Shown: piece by piece, positions 22,381 to 39,741 of the stretch
Numbering within the stretch: position 1 is the stretch's first letter
Layout of the letters: every line of letters starts with the position of its first letter
Source of the DNA: Desulfobacteraceae bacterium
GTDB taxonomy: Bacteria > Desulfobacterota > Desulfobacteria > Desulfobacterales > Desulfosalsimonadaceae
NCBI GenBank assembly: GCA_003597945.1
Contig: QZJS01000075.1
Location: 1 to 64,000, forward strand
Length of the DNA stretch: 64,000 nucleotides
Direction: 5' to 3'
Position numbers and translations under genes: made by a program
The notes under the pieces: generated by a model
Told to the model about the DNA's origin: nothing
Database searches by the model: none
What the model saw: only the letters and a program-made list of their open reading frames with translations

Positions 22381-23739
22381 CTATTGTAAGATGGAAATAT
22401 AACATCCTCCACTGCCATGTTTGCCTGTGGCCATGGGTGGAACGGCTGCAAAATGGTTTTCAAGACCATCCTCCGCAAGTTGCTGCCCCATGTTTACCGC
22501 TAGTACGGAGGAATCGCGGAAGTGGAGTCCTCCCCAGGTTCTGGCATCCACGATCTCTGTTCTGAGATCGTCTGCGGTGGAATAGTGCCGCATTGTTCCT
22601 GTCACACTGCTCTCAAGGTCAATCTCGATCATGGATGTGCCGAGGAACCGGGTGAAGACTTCGGCCTGCGCCGAAACAAAGGAGCCATGCCCCGCGACAT
22701 ATTCGGGAAAATTCGGCGTCATCACCAACGGCATCCACATGGGATCAGGATCTGTGGCAGGATTGCCGTCCGTATCGGCTCTTCGGATCGCCGTCACCGG
22801 CCGCCAGAAGTTGTAGAAGTATTTGGTGTCAAAAGTGGCAATCAGGCTGTCGGTTGAGACCATATTGCCCATCACCATCAGGCGAGCCGTATCGAGGAGA
22901 CTCAAGTTGAGACTTGCCGCGAGTTGCCGGTAAGCGGCGTTGAACTGGATGGCCATGTTGGTCGTCCAGAATCTGGCCACTTCGGTCTGCTCGGACGTCC
23001 GGGACATGCTCATGGCCCCGCCGATGTCTTTGACCTCGTTCAAGTCCGTCGCGTATTCGGCGCTGGTGAGGGCTGGCGGAGGTCCGGGGCGGTAAAGGTC
23101 CGGCGAGATGCGCAAAAACGGCGTCAATACGGCCATCCATGGATCCATGGGGGGCGCGGGGGTCACACCGTCAGGCATCATCGCCGTGGGCTCCCAGACA
23201 CCCGGACCGGGAGTCGGAAGAGCGTACCCGCCATCACCGCTAAGAACATCGCCGGACCGTAATGCAATGATCTCATCGGCAGCCTGTTCCCCTAGTATTA
23301 TCCCGTCATTCTTTGCGGTGCCATCCGGGATTGCGGCGAGCGAAGCGCTGTATTTTTCGGCGAGCATGGCTGAGGGGAAATAATGATTCAGTACACTGTA
23401 GGCGGCCGCCGCCACCGCGGCATCCCTCGAGGCTTTTGGAGCGGCCATTAAATCTGATTTGTATGGTTCATACCCGCCGTCTATGGCCACCAATGCATTG
23501 TAGACGGCAGCCTGCACATACGACAGGTAAACAAATGCCGCCGGCATGGAGGTTCCGCCCATAGACATCGGCATCCCCGGCATTGCTGGCGGCTGGATGA
23601 TGTCCTGAGCGATTTTGTTCCATTCAGCCACGATGCTGTCCGACGGAGAGCTGTCGGCGAGAGCCTGACCGACTCCACAGAAAAGAAAAATTCCCGCCAG
23701 CACCGAACCTGTCAATCTATAAAATTGATGCTTATTCAT
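22381..23739 (-). CDS. Vanadium-dependent haloperoxidase family protein, secreted
   Basis: A 452-residue protein of the PAP2/vanadium haloperoxidase superfamily, whose members bind vanadate or phosphate. A signal peptide (about residues 1-28, ending GQALA) precedes a helical domain. The active-site set is present: KYFYNFWRPVTAI (K and R of the KX6RP motif), PEYVAGHGSF (the SGH-type His), and ARTWGGLHFRD (second Arg and His). It could oxidise halides with peroxide or act as a phosphatase; sequence alone does not decide. The chain ends GSGGCYISILQ, a Gly-Cys tail shared with two other proteins of the cluster. It is the most downstream gene of the minus-strand secreted cluster. Confidence 0.8.
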   Translation of the reverse strand: MNKHQFYRLTGSVLAGIFLFCGVGQALADSSPSDSIVAEWNKIAQDIIQPPAMPGMPMSMGGTSMPAAFVYLSYVQAAVYNALVAIDGGYEPYKSDLMAAPKASRDAAVAAAAYSVLNHYFPSAMLAEKYSASLAAIPDGTAKNDGIILGEQAADEIIALRSGDVLSGDGGYALPTPGPGVWEPTAMMPDGVTPAPPMDPWMAVLTPFLRISPDLYRPGPPPALTSAEYATDLNEVKDIGGAMSMSRTSEQTEVARFWTTNMAIQFNAAYRQLAASLNLSLLDTARLMVMGNMVSTDSLIATFDTKYFYNFWRPVTAIRRADTDGNPATDPDPMWMPLVMTPNFPEYVAGHGSFVSAQAEVFTRFLGTSMIEIDLESSVTGTMRHYSTADDLRTEIVDARTWGGLHFRDSSVLAVNMGQQLAEDGLENHFAAVPPMATGKHGSGGCYISILQ

Positions 23740-25745: not shown

Positions 25746-27380
25746 TTATTGATGCAATGTGGAGATGAAACATCCGCCGTCGCCTCTGCGGCCTGATGGC
25801 TGCTGACTTCCAATTCCCGAAGGGTCTGTAATGAATCCATCCGCCGTGTTGTCGCTGTCCCCGATGCCGCCGTCCGTCAGAGTCAGAACGACCCTGTCGC
25901 GAGATGTATTAAACACCGCATGTTCACTGTAATCCTGCCATCCGCCCGCATCATCATACTTAAACCACATCTCATCGGTTTCAACGGCAACCGGCAGGGC
26001 GATTTCCACCACCGCGGCGCCTCCGGGGGCATCGGTTTTGATTCGCATGTCGACGAGACCAAAACGCATATTATCGGGGCGGTTCTCCATGTCGCTGATA
26101 TCCGCCGGGTCCATAACTTCAACACTCACCAGGTCTCCGCCGGACAACACCTTTATCCCCAGATGATCCCCCATGGGGGTAGTCAGGGGAATCATATCCG
26201 CCGGCAGTGTGTTCACGCCGCTGTCGGATACGGTCACCGCCACTTCATCGGCGGCGGAAAGCCCGCCCTGGTCGACGACCATCAGTGATAAAACAATGGA
26301 TGCGCCGTTCTCATCCACCGGCGGCGCAACAAATGTAGGGTTCGGCAGGGTTGCATCCGACAGCGTTACATCGGCTCCGGTTTTGACCGACCACAGATAA
26401 GAGGCAATTCCGGCTTCCGCATCGGTTGAGGCCGTCCCGTCCAGCGTTACCGTCGAACCCTCCGCTACCGCCTGATCGGGCCCGGCGTCGGCAATGGGGG
26501 GCTGATTAACCGCCACTGCATCATTGATAATGATGCTCACTGTATCCGTGTCCTGCAGCCCGAACATATCGGTCACGGTCAGTTGAAAGGTCATCACGAG
26601 TCCCGGCGGTCCAACCAGCGGAGCGGTGAACGTCGGCTGTGAAGAGGCGGGATTGGAAAGCGGGATGCCGATAGTGGTTATCTCATCCCACATAAAAGAC
26701 GCAACCGCATCGTCCGGATCACTGGAAGCGGTGCCGTCCAGCATGACCAACGTACCTTCAATCACGGTCTGATCGGGTCCGGCATCCGCGTTTGGCGGCA
26801 GATTGCCGTTGATGGCGGCATTTGAAAAGATGAAATCATCGGCAAATATATATTTCTGATCTCCGGGAGTTCCCTCGATTTCCTTAAACTCAATCTTTTG
26901 AAAACCCTCCGTGGAAATCACCCCCCGGAATGAAAACTGGCCATTGATGGGCATGTCGTCAAAATCCGCCGTCAGCGCATCATCGATGATGAAATTGATC
27001 TGGGCCGGCGGGGTGTTGGTCATAAACCATCCGCCCGCCGCGATAAGAGGCTGCGCAGCGGAACTCGAAAGGCTGTCGGGAATGCCGTGGGGAAACGAAT
27101 AAATTCCGTATCCGCTCCGGCCGGCGCCCATGCCGGTGGTCACCCTTTCACTGGAGCTCCAGGTGATGCCCTGACTGGTAACGCTGGTTGCCGAGTTGAC
27201 GGTGTCTATCGTGGATCGGACTCCATCCCACGCATTTCCTTCGAAATCTTCCAGAAAAACCGTCTCCAGCGCAGCAAGAAACGCGGATTCGTCCGTATAA
27301 GCGGTTAACGCCCCCATGGCGGCCGGCTGCTGCGTCAGAACCACGGCGAAAAAAACAACATATTTTATTATCTGTTTCAT
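25746..27380 (-). CDS. Secreted PKD-repeat protein with choice-of-anchor-U-like end
   Basis: About 544 residues from the ATG at 27380, chosen because GGGGGAG and AAAGG lie just before it; the frame is open to 27422 but overlaps the upstream gene. A signal peptide (ending AAMGA) is followed by a beta-sandwich region. Two PKD/REJ-type repeats, each starting PPxADAGPDQ, occupy about residues 195-390. A C-terminal segment with MWFKYDD, GWQDYS and DGGIGDSDNTADG resembles the choice-of-anchor U domain. It ends RRGDGGCFISTLHQ, the Gly-Cys tail shared with the subtilase and haloperoxidase proteins. Likely a surface or extracellular structural protein. Confidence 0.75.
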   Translation of the reverse strand: MKQIIKYVVFFAVVLTQQPAAMGALTAYTDESAFLAALETVFLEDFEGNAWDGVRSTIDTVNSATSVTSQGITWSSSERVTTGMGAGRSGYGIYSFPHGIPDSLSSSAAQPLIAAGGWFMTNTPPAQINFIIDDALTADFDDMPINGQFSFRGVISTEGFQKIEFKEIEGTPGDQKYIFADDFIFSNAAINGNLPPNADAGPDQTVIEGTLVMLDGTASSDPDDAVASFMWDEITTIGIPLSNPASSQPTFTAPLVGPPGLVMTFQLTVTDMFGLQDTDTVSIIINDAVAVNQPPIADAGPDQAVAEGSTVTLDGTASTDAEAGIASYLWSVKTGADVTLSDATLPNPTFVAPPVDENGASIVLSLMVVDQGGLSAADEVAVTVSDSGVNTLPADMIPLTTPMGDHLGIKVLSGGDLVSVEVMDPADISDMENRPDNMRFGLVDMRIKTDAPGGAAVVEIALPVAVETDEMWFKYDDAGGWQDYSEHAVFNTSRDRVVLTLTDGGIGDSDNTADGFITDPSGIGSQQPSGRRGDGGCFISTLHQ

Positions 27381-27418
27381 GGCCTTTTCTCCCCCAAAAT
27401 TACGCATTAATAAACGGG

Positions 27419-28321
27419 TCATCGCCCCTCCGGGCTTATGCCGGCGGACCTGGCTTGCGCTGCTTGTTTTTCCATTTTCCCCATGGCATAAAGTATCGCC
27501 TTTTCAATTCCGTCGGGTGTCCAGTCCCTTAGCAGGCTTCCATTGACGAATATAGTAGGCGTCCCGTCAACGCCAAGCGCTACGGCTTCCGCGATATCTT
27601 TCCGTATCCGGTCAACCGTTTCGGGGGCATGGTAGTCGTGCTCAAATTTTTCCATATCCAGATTCAGTAACTCGGCGATCTCGGTAAGCCTTTTTTCGGT
27701 CAAATTCAGGCCCTCGTCAAAAAGGATATCATGGTACAGCCAGAACATATCCTGTTCATGGGCCGCCATGGCTGCAATCGCGGCTTTGACCGCATACCGG
27801 TGCCCTCTTAACGGGTAATGTTTGAATACAATTTTGACGTCCTCCGAATAGTCGGCCTGCACCTGATCGAGCGCTTCCGCGGCCCGGGCGCAGCCTGTGC
27901 ATTGAAAGTCCGAGAACACGGTAATGGTGACCGGGGCATCCGGCGACCCCTTTACCGGGGAGTGGGATATGTTGATATCCTTGATGAAATTGACGGCCGT
28001 AATCCGGACGGTTTTTTGTTCCGTGCTGGTTAAAAACAGAATATCGTCTCTAGGTCCGGCCATAATGCCGTCAATGGCGGAGTCCACCCCGATTTTTCCC
28101 TTAAAATCCCCGTCCGCTCCATATACAAGGATATTGCGGGTTTTAGTAAGGACATAAATATAATTGCCTGTAATTGAAGCCGCCGTATCCATCGGCGTTT
28201 CCGCTAATGTAATGGTGTTTCGTGTAACCAGCTCAACCTCAACGGCGCCGACCGGACCGGCCCACATCAGGAGCAGGGCGGCAACGCATATGAAACTGCA
28301 TATTATGGATCTATTGCGCAT
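27419..28321 (-). CDS. DsbA/thioredoxin-like periplasmic oxidoreductase
   Basis: A 300-residue secreted protein. A signal peptide (about 1-26) precedes a roughly 90-residue beta-rich module (YIYVLTKTRNILVYG and DDILFLTS) that looks like part of a propeller. From about residue 128 there is a DsbA-type thioredoxin domain with C141-T-G-C144 (SDFQCTGCARA) and the cis-Pro loop GTPTIFVNG. It likely forms or isomerises disulfides, or reduces a partner. Its place between the subtilase and the PKD protein suggests service to the exported proteins of this cluster. The unusual fusion with an N-terminal beta module is notable. Confidence 0.82.
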   Translation of the reverse strand: MRNRSIICSFICVAALLLMWAGPVGAVEVELVTRNTITLAETPMDTAASITGNYIYVLTKTRNILVYGADGDFKGKIGVDSAIDGIMAGPRDDILFLTSTEQKTVRITAVNFIKDINISHSPVKGSPDAPVTITVFSDFQCTGCARAAEALDQVQADYSEDVKIVFKHYPLRGHRYAVKAAIAAMAAHEQDMFWLYHDILFDEGLNLTEKRLTEIAELLNLDMEKFEHDYHAPETVDRIRKDIAEAVALGVDGTPTIFVNGSLLRDWTPDGIEKAILYAMGKMEKQAAQARSAGISPEGR

Positions 28322-28346
28322 TCTTCATTCTTCCTTTCTCTGAGGG

Positions 28347-29870
28347 TCATCGGCTGTCATTAGACGCGGAAATAAAGCATCCGCCCCCGCCTCTGCCGGA
28401 ATCATTGCCTGAACTGTTTTGCAGAAGTTCCAGCGCCGCCGGCACGTTGATCCGGCCGTACCCGTATTCATGGTCCGGTCCCGGCTCTCCCAGATCCTTC
28501 GCACCGCCGGACAGCGCCTGCTTCAGATCGGAAAGCTCCGCATCCGGATGCGCGCTCATTAAGAGCGCCAGCGCACCGGTTACGTGGGCGGCGGCATACG
28601 ACGTGCCGGACACTTCGACGTAGGGGTCGCCGATTCCGCCCAGCGTCAGATCAGCGGTGCGGACGAATTCTCCGGGCGCCGTGAATGTCGGATAAACGGC
28701 TTCCCCGCACGGAGACGGTCCTCGTCCGCTGAAATCGGCGATCTCATCATCAGCATCAACCGCACCGACGGAAATGCTTTCTACATAATTTGACGGGCTG
28801 ACGCTGGTGGCCGCATTCGGCCCGGTATTGCCGGAGGCGCAGACCATGGCTATTCCGGCCTGAGTCAATATTTGGATATCTTCCTGGAATTCCGCCACGC
28901 ATTGATCCAGCGCATCAACAAACCCCCAGGATTTGTTTACGACATCCGGCGCATCATCCGTGTCCGGATCACCGTCCGGGTCCAACAGCCACTGGAACCC
29001 TGCATGGATGATGCTGTAAGCCGAAGTCCCGTCGTCATCGTAAATTTTAACGGCAATCCATTGAGCCCCCGGCGCCACCCCTATTGCACCGCCGCCGAAA
29101 TCGCCGCCAACCGCTATCCCGGCGACCTGGGTCCCATGACCGATGGGGTCATGGGGAAGGTTATACTTGCCAAAAGGGTCAAACCAGCTATTGTTGCCGC
29201 CGCGCCATTGATCCTCCAGGTCCGGATGCTTTCCGTCCACTCCGGTGTCCATGATCGCCAGAACGACTCCCTGTCCCGTAAAACCTTGCTTCCAGACCTC
29301 CGGAGCGCCGATCATATCCAGATTCCATCGGTTTTCCGAATGCCCGGAAAACATCGGTTGCACCATGCTGATCGCTACATCCGGGTCAATCCGCTCGACA
29401 GAGGGATCATCCGACAGTTCTTCAATCAGCCGGGCATCCGCCTCCAGCGCCACCGCATTGATTGCCCACAGATTGCGGACCTTCTCAACACGGTGAGAAA
29501 GCAGCCGGTTATTGACCGCCGTCCTTGCCTGATGCGCTTTTTCTTTAAGGGCCCGGATGAGTTGTTTCCGGTCTATTTTATCCATTTTATCCTTGACGGG
29601 CGCGGGGCCGGGAATTTCCCTTTCGGTCCGTTTTATTTTCCGGGATTCGCTGTCCGTGCCCTTTATGCCGATTGGTTTGTCAAATCTACGATCATTCACC
29701 TTGCCCACGAACCTTACGATCACCGGGATTTTGCCATCCGGTTCGGCCTGTTCCAGAAGGACCGCCAGCTCCGGGGTCAGGCTCCCCGCATGCACCGGAA
29801 AGGCAAACAACCACCACACAAGGATGATCGCGGCAATCTTTTCGGTTTTTCCCAGGTTCGGCTTGCGCAT
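28347..29870 (-). CDS. Secreted subtilisin-like serine protease (S8)
   Basis: A 507-residue preproprotease. A signal peptide ends near residue 28 (PVHA). An inhibitor-I9-like propeptide follows (about 30-168), and the S8 catalytic domain has D208 (IMDTGVDGKHPD), H245 (GHGTQVAG), oxyanion N348 (ASGNTG) and S424 (SGTSYAAAHVTG). All catalytic residues are present. The chain ends GRGGGGCFISASNDSR, the Gly-Cys-Phe-Ile-Ser tail found in two neighbours. It may process the large secreted proteins of the cluster. It starts 19 bases downstream of the lipoprotein gene stop. Confidence 0.92.
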   Translation of the reverse strand: MRKPNLGKTEKIAAIILVWWLFAFPVHAGSLTPELAVLLEQAEPDGKIPVIVRFVGKVNDRRFDKPIGIKGTDSESRKIKRTEREIPGPAPVKDKMDKIDRKQLIRALKEKAHQARTAVNNRLLSHRVEKVRNLWAINAVALEADARLIEELSDDPSVERIDPDVAISMVQPMFSGHSENRWNLDMIGAPEVWKQGFTGQGVVLAIMDTGVDGKHPDLEDQWRGGNNSWFDPFGKYNLPHDPIGHGTQVAGIAVGGDFGGGAIGVAPGAQWIAVKIYDDDGTSAYSIIHAGFQWLLDPDGDPDTDDAPDVVNKSWGFVDALDQCVAEFQEDIQILTQAGIAMVCASGNTGPNAATSVSPSNYVESISVGAVDADDEIADFSGRGPSPCGEAVYPTFTAPGEFVRTADLTLGGIGDPYVEVSGTSYAAAHVTGALALLMSAHPDAELSDLKQALSGGAKDLGEPGPDHEYGYGRINVPAALELLQNSSGNDSGRGGGGCFISASNDSR

Positions 29871-29889
29871 ATTCCTTTAACGCCCTGAA

Positions 29890-30378
29890 TTATTGAACGA
29901 CAAGATCGCTAATTTTAACATCTCCGATTACCACATTGACCCGGTCGCCGGATTTGACAACGCCGGGGTTGCCGAAAAACATCCAGTAAACCCTTCCTTC
30001 TTCCGGCGTGCCGGTGGTTCGAAGCGGCCCGACCTTGGCGGTGGTCGGCACCGCCAGGGTCTGATTGGTGGACTGATGAATCAGGTAAGCCTTGGTGTTC
30101 CGGTCAAAAACCGGCACGGCTTTTTTTTCATCGATGACCCGGTATCTGAAATCCACCATCCGGCCGGCGGCGGTCAGTGCGATCATTTCCACCTGAATTC
30201 CCCATTGCGCCGCAAGGCTTTCGGTGGAGATTTCCGAATCTGATCTCAGGTTACCGTTAATTGAGCTGCACCCGACAATCAAAAATAATAGTAACCCCAT
30301 TGTCGCGACGGCGCCAAATCGTTGTCTGCCGCATCTTTGCAATAGTAGTCTCCCGATTATTTGTTTTTTCATTTTCAT
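29890..30378 (-). CDS. Small lipoprotein of unknown function
   Basis: From the ATG at 30378 the product is 162 residues. A basic N terminus and hydrophobic run end in LFLIVGCSS, a good lipobox, so it should be lipid-anchored at Cys37. The mature part is mainly beta: VDFRYRVIDEKKAVPVFD, AYLIHQSTNQTLAVP, RVYWMFFGNPG and VNVVIGDVKISDLVV. The frame is open to 30435, but that extension lies within a strong hairpin. It is the first gene after the multicopper-oxidase-like operon and probably belongs to the same secretion or assembly unit. No family recognised. Confidence 0.65.
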   Translation of the reverse strand: MKMKKQIIGRLLLQRCGRQRFGAVATMGLLLFLIVGCSSINGNLRSDSEISTESLAAQWGIQVEMIALTAAGRMVDFRYRVIDEKKAVPVFDRNTKAYLIHQSTNQTLAVPTTAKVGPLRTTGTPEEGRVYWMFFGNPGVVKSGDRVNVVIGDVKISDLVVQ

Positions 30379-30399
30379 ACGGTTTATAAAAACTTTTAT

Positions 30400-30437
30400 A
30401 TATGCGGGGCATCGTTGATCACGAATGCCCCGCATAT
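30400..30437. terminator. Thirteen-base perfect hairpin after third cupredoxin gene
   Basis: ATATGCGGGGCAT (30400-30412) and ATGCCCCGCATAT (30425-30437) pair perfectly around a 12-base loop, six bases beyond the stop of the minus-strand gene at 30444. An A/T-rich tract follows on the minus strand. It could end or attenuate the multicopper-oxidase transcript before the lipoprotein and subtilase genes. Confidence 0.6.
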
Positions 30438-30443
30438 TTAGGG

Positions 30444-32024
30444 TTATCTATCGGAAAACCAAACAACCCGGACCGTAACGATAGCCTCATTGGAAACGTT
30501 GCCTGCCAGATCGGTTACGGTATATCTGAATGTATCCGTCCCGGTAAAATTCCTGGCAGGCGTGTAAATGACGCCGTTGGTGACGATCTGTACGGTTGCA
30601 CTATTGGATCCACTCGGCAGTGGTGTCAGACTGATTTGAGACGCCGCCACATTGCCGTCGCTATCCTTGAGATTGCCGTCCGGATCGTAATCATTTTCCG
30701 TCAGATTGATGAACACCGACACGTTCCGACGGGTTATCGCATTATCATCAACAGCTATCGGCGGATTGTTGTCCGTCGCCGTGACGGTTATGGAGACGGT
30801 GGCATTGGTGGCGCTGTATACCGCACCATCAAACGCCCTGTAGGTGAAGGTATCCGGACCGGAATATCCCTGGTCCGGGGTGTAGGTAAAGGACCCGTCC
30901 GGATTCAATGCCACAACGCCATTGAGCGCCCCCGTTACCAGCTCCGCAGTGATGAGAAGGCCGGTGTCGTTGCCCAGCACGCCGGGAGCCGGCACTTCAA
31001 GGACCGTATCCTGGGGTGTTTCGTATGCATCATCAACCACAATGGGGCCGGGCACTCCCTCTCCCACTTCAAGATTGACGAGCATACCGCCGCCGCTCAC
31101 CTGGTTGGTGGTCAGAAAATATCTGGCGTCATATACCGGGTATACGCCTTCCGCCCCGGGGTTCCAGATAACGTCCATGGTCTTCATGGCCGGCAGGAGA
31201 ACACTGTATTGCTGCTTCGGATAGGTATAGGGGTTGCCGTCCTCGGCCACCACTTTCCAGTAGCCGCCCCGCAATGTCGGTACATGGGTTTTGAGTCCCG
31301 CATTAACGAACCGGATCAGAATATTCTGGGTGACCGCGCCCGCCAGCCAGTTGGGGTCGCCCGGCTCATAAGGCTTTCCGTTCACCAGAAAGTAGGCGGG
31401 TTTGTAATTGAGAGGCTGGGCCACGGCAGGAGACGGGTCATGCAGGGTCGCATCGATCTCGCTGTAAAACAGCATGATCTCGCTCCCGTACTCGATATTG
31501 GGATAGGCCTGCCCCGGGCCGGCGTCCATTTTGACCGCACCATACAGCCCCATATGCACCTGGAGCCCCGGGTGGCTGCCGCTGTGATAGACATATGTTC
31601 CCGGCCGGAGGTTGTTCCAGGTATAATTGGCCGTGCCGCCGCCCGGAAGCGCCGAATGGGTGAACGACCTCACCCGGCTGCCTGCAAATTGAGGATTCAT
31701 CGCGGCGAACTGTCCCGGAATCACGATGGATACCGACTCACCGGTAGCAGCCGGCAGGTCGTTTCTTAAATAAATATTCAATACCGTATCACCGGGAGGA
31801 ATCGTAATCACCGGTCCCGGCGATGAAGCAGGTCCGATATTTGCAAATCCGGCATCCGCTTCGGCAAATCCCCACATGGTAATGGGGGTTCCATTAACGT
31901 TTTTTGTAAACTCCCCGGCCACCAGGTAGACATCCATGGCAAAGGAGGGGGCCGCGGCCAGCAGGACGGCGGCAAGGGTCAGCAGGACCCGCCCCAAAAA
32001 CATTCTAAGCAGTTTACGTTTCAT
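30444..32024 (-). CDS. Two-domain cupredoxin protein without copper ligands, plus cadherin-like repeats
   Basis: A secreted 526-residue paralogue of the next two genes upstream. After a signal peptide (about 1-29) come two cupredoxin-type domains. The positions that hold copper histidines in oxidases read SIVIPGQ, GTYVYHSGSHPG, THVPTLRGG and FLTTNQVSGGG, so no complete HxH pair and no type-1 Cys remain. The C-terminal third carries two cadherin-like/Big_9 repeats (PDGSFTYTPDQGYSGPDTFTY; later ARNFTGTDTFRYTVTD), of which the first 20 residues are PDGSFTYTPDQGYSGPDTFT. It is most likely a structural or adhesive subunit. AGGAGGG precedes the ATG, 16 bases after its upstream neighbour. Confidence 0.8.
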   Translation of the reverse strand: MKRKLLRMFLGRVLLTLAAVLLAAAPSFAMDVYLVAGEFTKNVNGTPITMWGFAEADAGFANIGPASSPGPVITIPPGDTVLNIYLRNDLPAATGESVSIVIPGQFAAMNPQFAGSRVRSFTHSALPGGGTANYTWNNLRPGTYVYHSGSHPGLQVHMGLYGAVKMDAGPGQAYPNIEYGSEIMLFYSEIDATLHDPSPAVAQPLNYKPAYFLVNGKPYEPGDPNWLAGAVTQNILIRFVNAGLKTHVPTLRGGYWKVVAEDGNPYTYPKQQYSVLLPAMKTMDVIWNPGAEGVYPVYDARYFLTTNQVSGGGMLVNLEVGEGVPGPIVVDDAYETPQDTVLEVPAPGVLGNDTGLLITAELVTGALNGVVALNPDGSFTYTPDQGYSGPDTFTYRAFDGAVYSATNATVSITVTATDNNPPIAVDDNAITRRNVSVFINLTENDYDPDGNLKDSDGNVAASQISLTPLPSGSNSATVQIVTNGVIYTPARNFTGTDTFRYTVTDLAGNVSNEAIVTVRVVWFSDR

Positions 32025-32040
32025 ATTTTTCCCTCCTTTT

Positions 32041-33324
32041 CTACATCATCGGTGCGCCGGGCGGCAGGATCATCAGCATGGTCATCATTCCCCCGGGGAA
32101 AATGTCATAGTTGACCATTTCTTTTTCCGTGTGGGAATGCCACATATACGTATACCCCCCGTGCGGGTTGAGGCCGCCTTCACCCGGAGGGAGACTTTCT
32201 TCCCCGCCCAGGTAGGGACTGCCGCTCCAGAATCCGCCGAAAGCCATGTCGAGTCCATCGGGAAGAAATACCGGGAAGGGTTTGCCGTGATCCGGCGCAT
32301 ACTCGTTGGGCTCCATGGGATCACCCGGCGCGTGACCGTAGATGTCCCATCCAAGGCCCTTGCCGGTCCAGGTAAAAACAGCGTCCATGGTCCCTCCCGG
32401 AATGGACTGAGCCGTAAACAATTCATAGCTCAGGTCCGCGCCCGCGCCCGGCGCGCTTTCCAGCAGTCGGCCGTCCGTGGCGATGATCCGGGCGTGGTTC
32501 CCGTGATAATGAAACGGGTGCAGGTCCCTTCCTCCGCCGATGATCCGCATGAGCATCTTATCTCCCGGATGCATCATGGGCATGCAGTTATACGGCTGAG
32601 TCGGCAGCCACACGGCCATCGGCTTAAACATGGTGTCCGGCGCGCACCGGCCGTTGATGAACCAGTAGTTGGGGAAATAATCCGAGAGATAATCGGTTCC
32701 TTCCAGCGCGGCCGGTCCCATGAATTCCACCAGTTGGTGAATCCGGGGGTCCATTTCAGTGAGCAGGAACAGATATTCCATGTCATACGCCGAATCCGGG
32801 TGACCGTAAGCCGTCGGCATCATCATATTAAAACCGGCAGGCCGGACGATGACGGCGCCCACGAGGCCCATCTCCACCTGGAGTTCGGGGTTGGTGCCGC
32901 TGTGGTAGAGATAGGTGCCGGCATGGGTTGCGGTAAACGTATAGGACGCGCTTCCCCCGGGCGCGGCTTCCATGGTCAACAGGCCCTGGCTGTCGCCGGA
33001 GGCCGTCACCGAATGTCCCGGAAACACGATGGACACCGGCACATCCAGCTCATTGGAAAGATTTACGGTGACGGTGCTGCCCTGGTTAAGGATCAGGGTC
33101 GGCCCGGAATATTGGGCCGGCCCGGCGCCGTTGGCATATCCCCAGAAATAAACGCTGTTGCCGTCCGGGGTGCTGATATAATCCGCCTTGGCCGTAAAGC
33201 TGAAGTTGGTCCCACTGATGCCGTGGATCATGGCGGCGGCGTCCGGCGCCGATATGAGCAGCATTGTCGATACCGCCATCATCAGGAGGCAGACGTTGAG
33301 ATATGATTTAATTTTTACATTCAT
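32041..33324 (-). CDS. Multicopper-oxidase-fold protein, domain 2 ligands only
   Basis: A 427-residue secreted two-domain cupredoxin protein. Signal peptide about 1-31. Domain 1 has lost the ligands: FPGHSV stands in for the HxHG motif, and TYLYHSGTNPELQVEMG replaces the HCH block. Domain 2 keeps HPFHYHG with H269, H272 and H274, and WHSH with H396 and H398. The type-1 cysteine that normally lies between those two histidines is Ser397. Domain 2 can therefore offer four trinuclear-cluster histidines but no type-1 copper. AAGGAGG stands six bases before ATG. It is the middle gene of the operon, 15 bases after the previous stop. See the finding on complementarity. Confidence 0.85.
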   Translation of the reverse strand: MNVKIKSYLNVCLLMMAVSTMLLISAPDAAAMIHGISGTNFSFTAKADYISTPDGNSVYFWGYANGAGPAQYSGPTLILNQGSTVTVNLSNELDVPVSIVFPGHSVTASGDSQGLLTMEAAPGGSASYTFTATHAGTYLYHSGTNPELQVEMGLVGAVIVRPAGFNMMMPTAYGHPDSAYDMEYLFLLTEMDPRIHQLVEFMGPAALEGTDYLSDYFPNYWFINGRCAPDTMFKPMAVWLPTQPYNCMPMMHPGDKMLMRIIGGGRDLHPFHYHGNHARIIATDGRLLESAPGAGADLSYELFTAQSIPGGTMDAVFTWTGKGLGWDIYGHAPGDPMEPNEYAPDHGKPFPVFLPDGLDMAFGGFWSGSPYLGGEESLPPGEGGLNPHGGYTYMWHSHTEKEMVNYDIFPGGMMTMLMILPPGAPMM

Positions 33325-33339
33325 GGCGATCCTCCTTGG

Positions 33340-34560
33340 TTAATTGACGATGATTTCGGTCATCATTCCCCCGAAATCTTCAGTATCATTGCTCAAATAA
33401 TTCATGTTGGTGGTATACAGAAAATAAGTTCCCGGCGGTATGTCCGTGGTGTCTAAAATAACGTCGATGGATTCGCCGCCGCCCATCGTAACCGAGCTGG
33501 TTGTATAATACAGATTCTTGCCGTCCGGCCCCCGATAGTGCCGGGCGTTTCTGCCCACCACTTCCATGGGGATGGACAGGCTGGTAAGGGTATAAAAACG
33601 GGTGATGTTCAGATTCGACAGCCGGAGCAGCACCCGGTCTCCCTGATTGGCCGTGATCAGCGAATGTTCCGGTTGCGTGGAAACCCCGTTTCTCGGATTG
33701 GCCATCATGGGCGCCATGGGTTGCATCATGCTGGCCGTATCCGGATATCCCCTGCCGTTTATCATGGGGTAGTTGTCCCGCATCAAGGCAAACGGAAGGG
33801 GCTGGACCATTTCACTGGCATCATGGAACGCGCTGTCAAAAGAGCCGAGCTGAATGGCGTAATCCACGTCATACCCGGTGGAGCCGTCGTTGTCGTTATA
33901 GGCGAATCGGCTGTAAGATTTCCCCTGGTAAGAGTAGACGGTGCCGTCCTGGGCCGGGCGCACGTAGAGATTGCCCAGCATCCCCATCTGCATGTGTTCG
34001 GTAGCTTCCACATGGCAGTGGTACATATACGTGCCGGGCTCCACCACATTATAATAATAGGTGAACGAAGCTCCCATATTGATGGAGACGGAAGCATCCG
34101 GGACCCCGTCGAACACCGGCGCGGCCTCGGGAAACCCGTGCCAGTGGACCGTGTGCGGATCAAACAGATCGGGCCGCATCATCATCCCCACATTGGTCAG
34201 GGTCAGGTAAAACTCATCCCCCTGATCGAGGACGATTTTAGGAGCCGGGAAAGTGGCCGCCATCATGCCGGCGGTCATTCTTTCATCGTGCGGCGTATCG
34301 GGATTATCCGTAATGCCGGTGAGATCGGAAAAACCGAACATATACATATCCCTGCCGTCGGCCATACGGACGGCCCCGTCTCCGGCGCCGATATGCATAC
34401 ATTTGACATTGTTATAAATCGGGTTACTGCTGTCCACAATGGCGTCCCCGTTGCTGTCTCCGGGGCATTGCACCAGGACCGACGCACCGGCGGCGACCAC
34501 CCAAGCCGACAACAGCAGACCCATCATGATCAGGAAGAGATATCGCTTGATTGTTTTCAT
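33340..34560 (-). CDS. Multicopper-oxidase-fold protein, domain 1 ligands only
   Basis: About 406 residues from the ATG at 34560, chosen for the AAAGGA nine bases upstream; the frame is open to 34578. After a signal peptide, domain 1 holds a full set of copper ligands: H136, H139 and H141 in PHTVHWHG, and H181-C182-H183 with H189 and M194 in YHCHVEATEHMQMGM. These would supply one type-1 copper and four histidines of a trinuclear cluster. In domain 2 the matching positions read ITRFYTLTSL and YFLYTTNMNYL, with no ligand histidines. Two-domain oxidases need both domains to build the trinuclear site, so this chain alone looks incomplete. It leads the three-paralogue run. Confidence 0.85.
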   Translation of the reverse strand: MKTIKRYLFLIMMGLLLSAWVVAAGASVLVQCPGDSNGDAIVDSSNPIYNNVKCMHIGAGDGAVRMADGRDMYMFGFSDLTGITDNPDTPHDERMTAGMMAATFPAPKIVLDQGDEFYLTLTNVGMMMRPDLFDPHTVHWHGFPEAAPVFDGVPDASVSINMGASFTYYYNVVEPGTYMYHCHVEATEHMQMGMLGNLYVRPAQDGTVYSYQGKSYSRFAYNDNDGSTGYDVDYAIQLGSFDSAFHDASEMVQPLPFALMRDNYPMINGRGYPDTASMMQPMAPMMANPRNGVSTQPEHSLITANQGDRVLLRLSNLNITRFYTLTSLSIPMEVVGRNARHYRGPDGKNLYYTTSSVTMGGGESIDVILDTTDIPPGTYFLYTTNMNYLSNDTEDFGGMMTEIIVN

Positions 34561-34626
34561 GGTTGCTTTTCCTTTCATGTGGTATGTTCCCGTCCGGCGG
34601 GAAAACCACCGGACGGAATGATTTCA

Positions 34627-37600
34627 TTAAGGCGCCGCGTAATATTCATCAGCGCCGATGTCCACGCCCGCCCCGTTGGGCCGGGCCTGACCATCATAGT
34701 CAACAGCCAGATCGGGATAATCGCCGGTCAGGTCCATTCCCGCATCAATCACGGGAGAGCCGGCGGTAATATGATAATCGGTGATCTGCCCCGGCATGTC
34801 GTTTTCGGGCGTCGGATGGGAAGTTAATGTCAGCGGTCCGTAGCGCACCTTGATGAAATTGCCGCCTTCGTCAAAAGCGATGGCCGGCTGGAGCCCGGTA
34901 GTGGGCTCTCCCGGAAGAACGGTCTGACCCCGGCCGCCGTTATGATATCCAAGTACAAACTCCGGATCACCGTCGCCCGTCAAATGGCAGTTCTGCGGAT
35001 TCAGCGCCTGCGGAGCAGGGGTTCCCAAGACCGCCAGGTCGTTATACCCCGCATCCGTGATCAGGTACTGGGGCGGATCACCGCTCACGATCTCGAAATA
35101 AAAGGACCGGTTCTGCCAGATAATATTGTCCTGGAGAATCGGATTCGAAAAACCGGGCTCCGAATTCAACAGGACCGCCAGAAGCGCACCGGTGTGCGCA
35201 CGGGAAACAATGCCCGCGGGCTGGGGGTTGGACTGGTTGAACTGCCCCGGGCTGAAGGCTTCTCCCGCGGTGGCGGTGCTGTCATTATTGGCGATGGTAT
35301 TGTGGATGATCCTTACCCGGACGGCATCCTGCAATGAAATGCCGCCGCCCGCCAATGCCGCCACGTTGTTTGCGATCATGTTGTTATAGATCTCCACGCT
35401 ATTCCATGGATGTTCCCAGGTTTCATCTTGAATCACATCGACTCCGTTGATCCGGCTCAACCGGATGCCCGCGCCGTCGCCGGCCGCCGCATAGTTGCCC
35501 AGAATCAGGTTGTTTTTCACTTTGATCGATCCGGCGCCCGGTCCAAGGGTATTGCCGGCAAGAGGCGCGTGCCCGCCGATAAAGATGCCTCCCCCGGAAA
35601 CGGTTTCACCCTGGTTGAAACATTCGTTGAAGATGATGGTGTTATTGGCGATCAGGCCGTTTTCACTCAGACCCAGGTGGCCGATGCCGCCGCCGTTGGA
35701 CAGGTTGAAATTGCCCGAGATCCAATTGTCGGTCACCTCGTAAAAATCAGAGCCGGTGCAGAGGGATACGCCGCCGCCCGCGCCGTTAAGGCCGCCGTTA
35801 TTGACGATATGGTTGTGATGAATCCGGACGTAATCGTTATCCGCATCCTGGTGTAAAACAGTATCCTCCTGCTCCACGACAAGCTGGGGATGTCCGACCC
35901 GAACCCCGCCGCCGAAAAAGCCGCTGTTTCCCATAATCCGCAGGTTGCTGATGTTCAAGTAATCGGCATAGCCGTTGACCACCACGCCGCCGCCGGTATC
36001 CGCGCCGGTAATGGTAAACCCGTCAATCCGGGCTCCCCGGTTCCGGGGTCGACGGAACCGGGCAGTCCCGTCGGCCCTGGCCACCACCAGCACCCCGGCC
36101 CCTTCTTCGCTTTGAAGCAGTTTGTCGGGATGCGGAACGCCGGTTTCGATTTCCTGACCCGGCAGCAGCGTAATACTGCCGCTGGAAACCAGCATCTCCA
36201 CTTTGTTTCGCCAGGCCACCGTTTTTTCCTGTGGAATCTTGTAAGCCCGGATCACGGTGGCGCCTTCGCCCCATCCCTGGAGACGGACCGGCTTCCACAT
36301 GATGACCATTTCGTCATAAGTGCCGGGTCCCACCAGAATCAGATCATTGTTTCCGGCATTGTCGATGGCGGCCTGAATGGACTGGCCCGCACTGACGGTC
36401 CGGACACTCGCACCCAGGGGCAGGCCCACCTGGACCGTTATTCCGGTGATACTGGACAAACCATTGGCGCGCGTTATTTCAAGCTGTCCGGTGGTGGTGC
36501 CGCCGGCCACCGTTCCGGTGATCAGCAGATCGCTCCAGATCACGTTGGTCAACGGCACGCCGTTGATGGAGACCGATCCGGGGGTCGTGCCGAATCCGTA
36601 ATCCCTGGTGATGGTTTTGCTGTTTACGCCGTCAAATTCCGGGTTGGGAACCTCGACTGCGCCCATGGCATGGATCTCAATCTGCCCGCCCGGAGCCGGG
36701 ACATACGGCCCGCCGCCCACACCGTTTCCCGGCGCGGTTACCCGGTCAATCCGCGGGGTGCCGTCCATAAATTCGCTGTCTAACGGAAACTGGTCCGGTC
36801 CGGCAAACGCCGCCACCGGCACCACCGGAGTGTCCAGATAGGTGGTGGACCCCGGCATGTACTGGAAGGTGTAACAGAATGTGCTGTACTGCGTATTGAA
36901 TTGCGGGTCCGGTACAAACGCACCGGTCACCGGATCAATATTGCCCGGGCTGTTCATGCAGGTGGTGAGCATGTTGGGCGACATCCCGGAAAACATGGGC
37001 AGGTTCGCCGTATACGTGGAAGGAACCAGCGCATTGTATCGGCCGTACTGGTCCGAATAGGTCCGACCGATCTCGCGGCCGGTCCAATCATGAATGGAGA
37101 CCGGCATCCAGGGAGGCGCAAACTTTTCTCCGAACTGCGGGGATGCGGGGTCGAACTCGTTTGCGGTATCGTCCAGGATAAAACCCACAATGTGGCCCGC
37201 AATAGGCGCTTCCGTGAACATGAAAAAATCCGCAACCGCATTCTGTCCGCCGCTCAGATAGACCTTTTTCCGGTCGCACAGGGGCGTGTTGGTTCCCGCC
37301 CGATACGGCTGCACCGGATTGCCGTTTTCATCTTCCAACGAAAAAAGGGAGAATTCCATCGGCACCAGATGCGGGTCGCCCACGCAGGCGGGCGGCAACA
37401 ACTGGGTGCTGGGCACATACTGATCGCCGAAGTCGACATTTCGGTCTTCTTCCTTTATAATTTCATACCCGGCCGGCGGAATGGCCTCCACGATATAGAT
37501 GCCTTTTGGCAACCCATCCGGGTTGTGGACCGGATCATACCCGGCAAACGCGTACCCGCCGTCGAAAACACCGGGACGCACCTGGTTCCAGTTGCGCATG

Positions 37601-39741
37601 CCGTCGTAGCATTTATCGGGAAGCACATCCGGAGGATCCGTCGGGTCCGCTCCCGGGCATCCGGCGGGCAGATTGTCGTCCCAACTGTCGGTATAGGTAT
37701 AATCAACGGCATCGCCAAGATCGAATACGTTGTTTCCGTTATGGTCGACATCCTCCGGTCCGGGGAAGTTATCATACGGATAATTATCGACATCCGCATA
37801 CTCGATAGCGCCGCTGCCATTAATGTCGTCCACCACGCCGTTATTATCGGCATCCATATACAGATTGACCTGTACCCGGGGAATCCCCGGCTCCCAAGGC
37901 TCAGCAGCGGCATAGGCCGGGTCGTTTTCTGCACGGGTCACGGCATAATAGACCATGCCGGAGATGCCGCCGTTTTCACCGGGGCCGTAAGCCGCCTTGC
38001 CCCACTGCATCACGCTGGTCTGTCCCAGAAAACCCTGGAACGCCGCGGTCAGGACCGGGCCGGTTTCCGTCCGGTACTTGGAAGTGCCGTATTCATTGGC
38101 CGGGTCGGCCGGATCCTGGATCTGGGGTGTCAATACCCCCTGAAACGACCAGGGATCGGCCGCATCAATGGGGCCGCCGTGATCCACCGTAACGGTCACG
38201 CCGGTGGCTTTGAACCGGGCGAAATCGACTTCCGCCACCTGCCAGGAGAAAAACGGAAAGACCTGATCAAACGGTACGAAACCTTCCGTATCAGTGGGGA
38301 AGGATTGATACATGGTCCCGTCCCGCCATCTCAGATTAACGGCCTGTTCGGGAATCGGCGGCTCGCCGGCGTCCCATCTGCCGTTTTGATTCAGGTCATT
38401 GAAGACCCAGTGCTCCAGGCGGGTAAACCATTGAAACACCGGCACGTCGCCGAGGCTGCATCCGCCCAGGTTATTGCAGGATCCATCCGGATTGACGGTC
38501 ACCCCGTAAAAAGCGATGACCAGATCCATATAATCATCCCAGACCACCATCTGGTAGGCGCCCGGCGGCACGTTGGGAATGGAGAAGGTGCCGTCACCAT
38601 TGGCCCGCTGCGCATATACGCACTTGCCGATACCCACGGCCATGTCGTTTAACCCGATCCACGGGGTGGTATGCGCAAAGGGCTCGCCCGAGTAAAATTC
38701 GGTGGCCGGCGGCCGGGACAGATGCAGATTGGTTATCCGGCCGGATATGGTTGAGCCGCCGGTCAGGACGGTGGCATCATAAGTCGGCCGGACAAAACCG
38801 ACGAACACATGCCAACCCGCGGGACCGAATTCCTGAAAATACGGGGGTTCGTTGGCCTTGACCCAGGCATCGATGACTTTTGTACCTTCAATGGTGGTGG
38901 TCTGCTGCCAGTCGGTGCTGACCCAGTTGCCAGATCCGGGGGGCATTTCCACCGCATTGGGCGGAACGATGATGACGCCGTATTTGCCCGGCGCCAGATT
39001 GCGGACGGTGGCCAGGCCGTTTGCATCAGTGTAGATGTTCATGTCGCCCATGTTCTCCACAATGGGCTGCCCGTCTGCATCCAGGATATAGTTGCCCAAA
39101 CCGTCGCGCTGATAGGTGGTGCCCAGCATATTGCCGAAGGCGTCCATCATCGCCTGGCCGGCGGACATGCCGTATTTGCCGCCCGCATCCTCCAGAATGA
39201 CGCGGAACCCTTCCAGGCCCTGTTCCTCGGGTAAATCCGGCGCATTGTTAACCGGATAATTATCATTAAACACAAAGATGGAAATCTGGGCCGTGGGAAT
39301 CGGGTGCCGGTTCACATACACGGTCACGGTTCCATCTCCGATATCTCCGCTAAAGGCGGCCGCGCCGTTGCTGTACCCGCCATCCGGCAGCACGGAAATG
39401 TAATACCGCTTGGCGGGGTCCAAAGCCGGAAAAGGATCCGACTCGGCGCCCTGGGCCACCACCGGCATATAGCTTTTATGAAAGTCTGTGGCGAAATTGG
39501 TGGCGGGATCATCAGGCACGACATGGTGGGTAGCATCTTCTTCCACCAGCCATTTATACTGCGTCACCGGACTGGTCGCGCCGTTTTTGTCGACTCCTTT
39601 GACGCTTAACGTAAACGCCCATAAACTCGAATGTGTCATTAACATCATCAGGACGAAGACCGTTACATGCAGGTCCCATTTGACCGGCCTTTTGGACATT
39701 CGCCTTAAAAAGGCGTTTAAATTAAATTTCATTACATTCAT
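34627..39741 (-). CDS. Giant secreted modular protein (SdrD_B-like modules and beta-helix)
   Basis: A 1704-residue exported protein. An unusually long signal region ends near THSSLWA (about residue 43). Beta-sandwich modules of the SdrD_B/carboxypeptidase-regulatory type follow, for example IFVFNDNYPVNN near 147 and HWVFNDLNQNGRWDAGEPP near 440. Around residues 620-680 lie Asp-rich, calcium-binding-like loops (YMDADNNGVVDD, DVDHNGNNVFDLGDA). A parallel beta-helix begins near residue 1113 (SAGQSIQAAIDNAGNNDLIL) with many N-rich turns, and the C terminus (DYDGQARPNGAGVDIGADEY) resembles choice-of-anchor Q. AAGGGGG sets the ATG at 39741. It is the first gene of the cluster and probably the scaffold for the oxidase-fold proteins. 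Confidence 0.85.
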   Translation of the reverse strand: MNVMKFNLNAFLRRMSKRPVKWDLHVTVFVLMMLMTHSSLWAFTLSVKGVDKNGATSPVTQYKWLVEEDATHHVVPDDPATNFATDFHKSYMPVVAQGAESDPFPALDPAKRYYISVLPDGGYSNGAAAFSGDIGDGTVTVYVNRHPIPTAQISIFVFNDNYPVNNAPDLPEEQGLEGFRVILEDAGGKYGMSAGQAMMDAFGNMLGTTYQRDGLGNYILDADGQPIVENMGDMNIYTDANGLATVRNLAPGKYGVIIVPPNAVEMPPGSGNWVSTDWQQTTTIEGTKVIDAWVKANEPPYFQEFGPAGWHVFVGFVRPTYDATVLTGGSTISGRITNLHLSRPPATEFYSGEPFAHTTPWIGLNDMAVGIGKCVYAQRANGDGTFSIPNVPPGAYQMVVWDDYMDLVIAFYGVTVNPDGSCNNLGGCSLGDVPVFQWFTRLEHWVFNDLNQNGRWDAGEPPIPEQAVNLRWRDGTMYQSFPTDTEGFVPFDQVFPFFSWQVAEVDFARFKATGVTVTVDHGGPIDAADPWSFQGVLTPQIQDPADPANEYGTSKYRTETGPVLTAAFQGFLGQTSVMQWGKAAYGPGENGGISGMVYYAVTRAENDPAYAAAEPWEPGIPRVQVNLYMDADNNGVVDDINGSGAIEYADVDNYPYDNFPGPEDVDHNGNNVFDLGDAVDYTYTDSWDDNLPAGCPGADPTDPPDVLPDKCYDGMRNWNQVRPGVFDGGYAFAGYDPVHNPDGLPKGIYIVEAIPPAGYEIIKEEDRNVDFGDQYVPSTQLLPPACVGDPHLVPMEFSLFSLEDENGNPVQPYRAGTNTPLCDRKKVYLSGGQNAVADFFMFTEAPIAGHIVGFILDDTANEFDPASPQFGEKFAPPWMPVSIHDWTGREIGRTYSDQYGRYNALVPSTYTANLPMFSGMSPNMLTTCMNSPGNIDPVTGAFVPDPQFNTQYSTFCYTFQYMPGSTTYLDTPVVPVAAFAGPDQFPLDSEFMDGTPRIDRVTAPGNGVGGGPYVPAPGGQIEIHAMGAVEVPNPEFDGVNSKTITRDYGFGTTPGSVSINGVPLTNVIWSDLLITGTVAGGTTTGQLEITRANGLSSITGITVQVGLPLGASVRTVSAGQSIQAAIDNAGNNDLILVGPGTYDEMVIMWKPVRLQGWGEGATVIRAYKIPQEKTVAWRNKVEMLVSSGSITLLPGQEIETGVPHPDKLLQSEEGAGVLVVARADGTARFRRPRNRGARIDGFTITGADTGGGVVVNGYADYLNISNLRIMGNSGFFGGGVRVGHPQLVVEQEDTVLHQDADNDYVRIHHNHIVNNGGLNGAGGGVSLCTGSDFYEVTDNWISGNFNLSNGGGIGHLGLSENGLIANNTIIFNECFNQGETVSGGGIFIGGHAPLAGNTLGPGAGSIKVKNNLILGNYAAAGDGAGIRLSRINGVDVIQDETWEHPWNSVEIYNNMIANNVAALAGGGISLQDAVRVRIIHNTIANNDSTATAGEAFSPGQFNQSNPQPAGIVSRAHTGALLAVLLNSEPGFSNPILQDNIIWQNRSFYFEIVSGDPPQYLITDAGYNDLAVLGTPAPQALNPQNCHLTGDGDPEFVLGYHNGGRGQTVLPGEPTTGLQPAIAFDEGGNFIKVRYGPLTLTSHPTPENDMPGQITDYHITAGSPVIDAGMDLTGDYPDLAVDYDGQARPNGAGVDIGADEYYAAP

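Follow-up and report, generated by a model that had tools for sequence, protein, structure and literature searches.

A three-gene cupredoxin cluster that probably encodes a secreted heterotrimeric multicopper oxidase with one trinuclear site divided between paralogues

Genes and copper ligands at the locus

On the minus strand of the window (the whole stretch of DNA analysed here, 64,000 nucleotides of contig QZJS01000075.1 from the Desulfobacteraceae bacterium assembly GCA_003597945.1) lies an operon-like run of genes in the order G-A-B-C-X181-S8 protease, most of them separated by gaps of about 10-50 bases (Table 1). Promoter and terminator scans returned signals no more than chance, and Pfam and NCBIfam searches with X181 found no family match. 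For A, the ATG at 34560, which is M7 of the open reading frame beginning at 34578 and is preceded by AAGGA, is probably the true start. Because a preliminary description of this DNA began A at that internal ATG, its numbering of A is 6 lower, and the residues it called H136, C182, H189 and M194 are H142, C188, H195 and M200 when counted, as here, from the 34578 reading frame.

Table 1. Features of the cluster, with positions in the window.
Feature	Coordinates	Strand	Description
G	34627..39741	-	1704 aa; giant secreted scaffold or adhesin-like protein; gene upstream of A
G domains	34627..39741	-	SdrD_B, PL4 fn3-like, NosD/beta-helix, choice-of-anchor Q
A	33340..34578	-	Secreted two-domain multicopper-oxidase subunit; domain 1 has the only type-1 site and half of the putative trinuclear site
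A motif H142-x-x-H145-x-H147	34138..34155	-	T1 His, T2/T3 His; invariant, 81/81
A motif H187-C188-H189-x5-H195-x4-M200	33979..34020	-	T3, T1 Cys, T3, T1 His, T1 Met; invariant, 81/81
B	32041..33324	-	Secreted two-domain multicopper-oxidase subunit; domain 2 has the other half of the putative trinuclear site
B motif H269-P-F-H272-Y-H274	32503..32520	-	Histidines invariant, 78/78
B motif H396-S397-H398	32131..32139	-	Ser at type-1 Cys position; invariant, 71/71
C	30444..32024	-	Third two-domain paralogue, without copper ligands; C-terminal bacterial Ig/cadherin-like repeats
X181	29890..30435	-	Small protein, lipobox-like IVGC; conserved gene after C
S8 protease	28347..29870	-	Secreted, subtilisin-like; Peptidase_S8 E 2.5e-54; often the next cluster gene

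Known multicopper oxidases are self-sufficient single chains or homotrimers. In the type-C two-domain oxidases, domain 1 holds the type-1 (T1) copper and the HCH motif, the partner histidines come from domain 2 of the neighbouring chain, and homotrimeric two-domain oxidases have a trinuclear site at every such D1/D2' interface. The solved structures nearest A, 3g5w and 2zwn, are type-C two-domain oxidases, namely the Nitrosomonas blue copper oxidase and a metagenomic enzyme, respectively. A matches the Pfam families Cu-oxidase_3 (E 2e-16) and Cu-oxidase (E 3e-5), B matches Cu-oxidase_3 (E 3e-16), and C matches Big_9 (E 9e-28); the first 325 residues of C have no Pfam match and match two-domain copper proteins in the PDB. 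All three proteins are paralogous over both domains, with hhalign E-values of 1e-30 for A-B, 2e-23 for A-C and 1.7e-54 for B-C.

The sequences confirm the earlier observation that A and B have lost copper ligands reciprocally. In domain 1, which reads H142-TV-H145-W-H147 and H187-C188-H189...H195...M200, A retains a complete T1 set together with four trinuclear histidines; its domain 2 has none. B retains four trinuclear histidines (H272, H274, H396 and H398) in domain 2 only; serine stands in place of the T1 cysteine in its WHSH motif, read as W-H396-S397-H398, and its domain 1 reads YHSGTNPELQVEMG, without cysteine. What the preliminary description missed is C, a third paralogue that lies directly downstream of B and is devoid of ligands. 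B additionally keeps H269, the first histidine of HxxHxH and a T1-type position, which is invariant despite the absence of a T1 cysteine in B.

Some features of the surrounding sequence deserve mention. Adjoining the S8 protease is a DsbA-like thioredoxin (27419-28321), with an NHL/beta-propeller-like stretch before it, which is a possible redox partner or folding factor of the cluster. Three secreted proteins, at 28347-29870, 25746-27422 and 22381-23739, share a Gly-rich GG-C-F/Y-I-S tail at the C-terminus (GGGGCFISASNDSR, GDGGCFISTLHQ and GSGGCYISILQ, respectively) that looks like a common C-terminal sorting or anchoring signal. The last of these also bears a distant match to the second helical domain of vanadium chloroperoxidase, and a relative of it adjoins C in one of the related loci described below (L065).

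Conservation and distribution of the cluster

A search of one genome per species yielded 80 loci (designated by L numbers) with relatives of A at 52-69% identity, from entries titled Desulfobacterota, Beta- and Gammaproteobacteria, Nitrospirae, Acidobacteria, Planctomycetes, Myxococcota, Hydrogenedentes and others. All eight ligands of A are present in 81 of 81 sequences across these many phyla. Over the same loci, H269, H272 and H274 of B were found in 78/78 sequences and H396-S397-H398 in 71/71. Where a B sequence seemed to be without HSH, the motif was located past an insertion, in a different frame of a broken gene or on the piece that follows. The two exceptions are L030 and L068, in which the gene runs off the end of the contig. 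An apparent HCH in B of L069 was rejected as a real motif, since it belongs to an insert and this B has its usual WHSH as well. Neither HxH nor HCH occurs in C (none in 74/74). The eight trinuclear positions are thus invariant at a mean divergence of A and B of 43-47%, and conservation across 80 related loci argues that the ligand pattern of A and B is not due to chance. Whether reciprocal loss is always kept in homologous pairs had been posed as a check on the original proposal, and it proved universal in the relatives examined; the contrary case, in which both chains lose the ligands of the same domain, was looked for among them and none was seen. Even the divergent clusters of Paraburkholderia (L083) and Cupriavidus (L084), whose A is only about 40% identical, are arranged in the same way, and the reciprocal motifs recur in L083 (HTVHFHG and WHCH...EHLQMGM in A; HPFHEHG and WHSH in B).

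A and B also travel together. Of 198 genomes sampled from the phylum, 11 encode A and precisely these encode B, the two genes being adjacent every time; the other 187 have neither. Pairwise distances of A correlate with those of B (r 0.61), as expected for genes that move as a pair. A is absent from 30/30 nearer relatives, and the G+C content of the cluster region (window positions 27000-39741) is 0.54-0.59 vs 0.38-0.50 in the flanks. These two observations suggest horizontal spread, and the cluster is probably a horizontally acquired island.

Gene order extends this association to the neighbours. The order G-A-B-C-X181, often followed by the S8 protease, is found in most of the 80 loci with enough contig; G adjoins A in nearly all, and X181 is present in most. 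G is fused to A in L036, L043, L049 and L055, and C to G in L074, L083 and L084; given these real fusions, the products of G, A, B and C probably function jointly. L053 seems to join A to B as well, but this is an assembly-gap artefact, as the open frame crosses a run of Ns. In L013, L014, L016, L019, L020, L034 and L048, the S8 protease bears an Ig/cadherin-like tail like that of C in the window, as if this repeat module were shared between members of the operon.

Genes for a SCO1/SenC copper chaperone and for a monoheme cytochrome each lie beside the cluster in 21/80 loci, and multiheme cytochromes lie near it in about a dozen. Downstream of the cluster, three loci (L011, 18632-20689; L018, 18339-20471; L037, 18268-20505) encode a cytochrome with 12 hemes that has MtrC-like and Cytochrome_cB matches; L027 has a partial relative. 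SCO1 was not found in the window's own genome, which is about 88% complete, implying that copper loading there differs or that the gene falls in the missing part. Many hosts are denitrifiers or sulfate reducers, and the electron acceptor could be questioned because some are nominal anaerobes.

Assembly of the candidate oxidase

From the ligand pattern, the preliminary description had proposed an obligate hetero-oligomeric oxidase, built as a mixed trimer or hexamer of A and B. That the oxidase would be an obligate hetero-oligomer is well supported, because reciprocal retention is universal, A and B always co-occur and no alternative completes the trinuclear site. The mixed A/B oligomer is incomplete as a description of it, with C missing. 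Since a third paralogue, C, accompanies A and B, and since structure prediction was confident only when C was included, the assembly is likely A:B:C with one active site.

In locus L006, A, B and C stand in one frame; with two stops read as Gly, they were folded as one chain by AlphaFold2 on an alignment of 36 rows, all natural read-through stretches of other loci. The alignment was restricted to such rows because MAFFT, given A, B and C as separate rows, superimposed the paralogues. The prediction was one confident body (pLDDT 82.4, pTM 0.86), in which the signal-peptide linkers were disordered, as expected, and the copper loops of A were of moderate confidence (pLDDT 64-76 per block). A and B of the window alone (19 rows) gave a low-confidence model (pLDDT 66.2, pTM 0.55). 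Adding C is the likely source of this gain in predicted confidence, partly confounded by a different query and by fewer B rows in the A-B run, the A rows being about equal.

The top Foldseek matches of the A-B-C model were of the six-domain class (prothrombinase factor V, ceruloplasmin, factor VIII and MnxG; E 1e-46 to 1e-38), at a TM-score of about 0.2 and an rmsd of about 34 A, and the three-domain Thermus laccase aligned over 767 columns with a TM-score of 0.72 of its own length. This suggests that the domains match those of six-domain oxidases one by one and that the modelled order round the ring differs from the sequential order of ceruloplasmin. Laccase D1-D2-D3 in some 770 columns would fit A1-A2-B2 or B1-B2-C2, which points to the ring A-C-B and hence to contact between A1 and B2. 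Judging from these Foldseek scores, the order A-C-B, with A1 against B2, appears to fit the model better than A-B-C. Covariation across 73 sequences of A, B and C, in which A1-B2 accounts for 7 of the top 30 pairs against 3.3 expected, is at most weakly suggestive.

Could A and B suffice? Together they contain all the ligands, and alternating chains in a mixed trimer or hexamer could form an A1/B2 site, leaving C as an unrelated surface protein of the operon, a role that its Ig-like repeats would suit. We regard this as unlikely: C is a full-length paralogue of B (hhalign E 1.7e-54) and lies beside A and B wherever the contig suffices, the prediction was confident with C and poor without it (with different queries, and so partly confounded), and two chain types in an odd-membered ring cannot pair every A1 with a B2. 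Considerably less probable is that these are decayed paralogues with no trinuclear site at all, A then being an electron carrier with a mononuclear blue-copper centre, and B and C serving for structure or copper storage. It is true that no single chain has a complete trinuclear site and that B has serine for cysteine, but decay would not keep eight trinuclear positions invariant across phyla at the divergence seen here, the two halves always travel together (the same 11 of 198 genomes), and the same D1/D2' split is used by the type-C oxidases nearest A. Finally, a heteromer of the same composition housing a nitrite-reductase-like or other T1/T2 centre in place of an O2-reducing trinuclear site is very improbable, for although the best sequence match of B is to NirK chains, C matches several of them, NirK is trimeric with an interfacial site and many hosts are denitrifiers or sulfate reducers, A has the trinuclear motif HCH instead of an HCA-type motif, domain 2 of B has both HxH and HSH to make eight histidines where the T2 site of NirK needs three, and the NCBIfam Cu_nitrite_red scores of 29.5 and 37.1 bits are far below the cut-off of 296.

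We therefore favour, with reasonable confidence, an obligate A:B:C heterotrimer that is secreted and has six cupredoxin domains, a single T1 copper and a single trinuclear site. In this proposal, A, B and C would be sister two-domain cupredoxin chains duplicated from a type-C-like two-domain multicopper oxidase, and the trinuclear site would have been kept only at the interface of A domain 1 with B domain 2, the B1-C2 and C1-A2 interfaces being structural. A would contribute the T1 copper (H142, C188, H195, M200) together with H145, H147, H187 and H189, and B would contribute H272, H274, H396 and H398. An extracellular donor would be oxidised at the T1 copper of A, and a Cys-His relay would carry the electrons to the A/B trinuclear site, where O2 would be reduced to water. 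G, which in some lineages is fused to A or C, probably serves as an extracellular carrier or display scaffold for the enzyme. What the data show directly is the ligand pattern with its conservation, the synteny and co-occurrence of the genes, their paralogy, the G fusions and a confident joint prediction of A, B and C in one relative; we infer the copper loading, the oxidase activity and, from the comparison of folds, the A1-B2 contact.

Relation to known oxidases

Like the type-C oxidases 3g5w and 2zwn, A, B and C have two cupredoxin domains per chain, as judged by Pfam, paralogue alignment and predicted strands. The type-C enzymes have T1 and HCH in domain 1 only, matched by A in 81/81 sequences, and HxH/HxH in domain 2, with the site between D1 and D2'. 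They differ in being homotrimers with both trinuclear halves on each chain, whereas here the halves are on different paralogues and C has neither. The MnxEFG complex of Bacillus is, like the proposed A:B:C, a heteromeric multicopper oxidase complex, and it oxidises a metal outside the cell; MnxG alone holds all of its oxidase sites, and MnxE and MnxF are not known to be multicopper oxidase paralogues. The six-domain oxidases (ceruloplasmin, hephaestin and bacterial MnxG/MofA-like proteins) form a ring with a single trinuclear site, as is proposed for A:B:C, but do so in a single chain; the present system has three separate genes, T1 in a first domain and, by our reading of the model, another chain order round the ring. 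According to one account (PMC3600357), the T1 coppers of six-domain oxidases occupy even domains and the trinuclear site lies at D1/D6 or D2/D3; in the bacterial ones, unlike the present case, domain 2 is described as holding T1 and the D2/D3 interface as holding the trinuclear site.

A study of Sideroxydans lithotrophicus ES-1 reports that the products of Slit_1812-1818 are more abundant on magnetite (Keffer et al. 2025, PMC12016527), that two of them have multicopper oxidase motifs and a larger third has adhesin- and polysaccharide-lyase-like domains (PMC12016527), and that relatives exist in Paraburkholderia and Ralstonia (PMC12016527, PMC5566968). They are described there as uncharacterised magnetite-induced cupredoxins, and the passages found on them mention no split active site (PMC12016527). 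As far as these sources go, that cluster comprises three tandem secreted cupredoxin/multicopper oxidase genes, the large third one without multicopper oxidase motifs, along with small genes, SCO1 and a cytochrome. Of the related loci, L083 and L084 resemble it with A, B, a C-G fusion and X181, and L074 has the order A, B, C-G, X181, SCO1. The window has A, B, C and X181 in the same order, differing in that C and G are separate and that its genome shows no SCO1. Because the order in L074 and the C-G fusions of L083 and L084 fit so closely, we think that the cluster is the same system as Slit_1812-1818, matched by gene order and domains only.

A metal or mineral electron donor is our leading guess for the substrate. 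More tentatively, the cluster may represent a widespread, horizontally spread extracellular oxidase, a heterotrimeric counterpart of ceruloplasmin displayed by G, that takes electrons from solid minerals such as magnetite. In the open-access literature we found no description of a heteromeric or split multicopper oxidase, of reciprocal ligand loss or of such a heterotrimer. If true, the proposed A:B:C enzyme would clearly exemplify the specialisation of subunits that follows gene duplication, with a ligand-free third subunit completing the ring, and would represent a path from two-domain trimers towards six-domain oxidases other than gene fusion. Annotation gene by gene, as multicopper oxidase or hypothetical protein, would miss such an enzyme. 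The model also suggests, in concrete biochemical terms, what the uncharacterised magnetite-induced cluster of an iron oxidiser might do.
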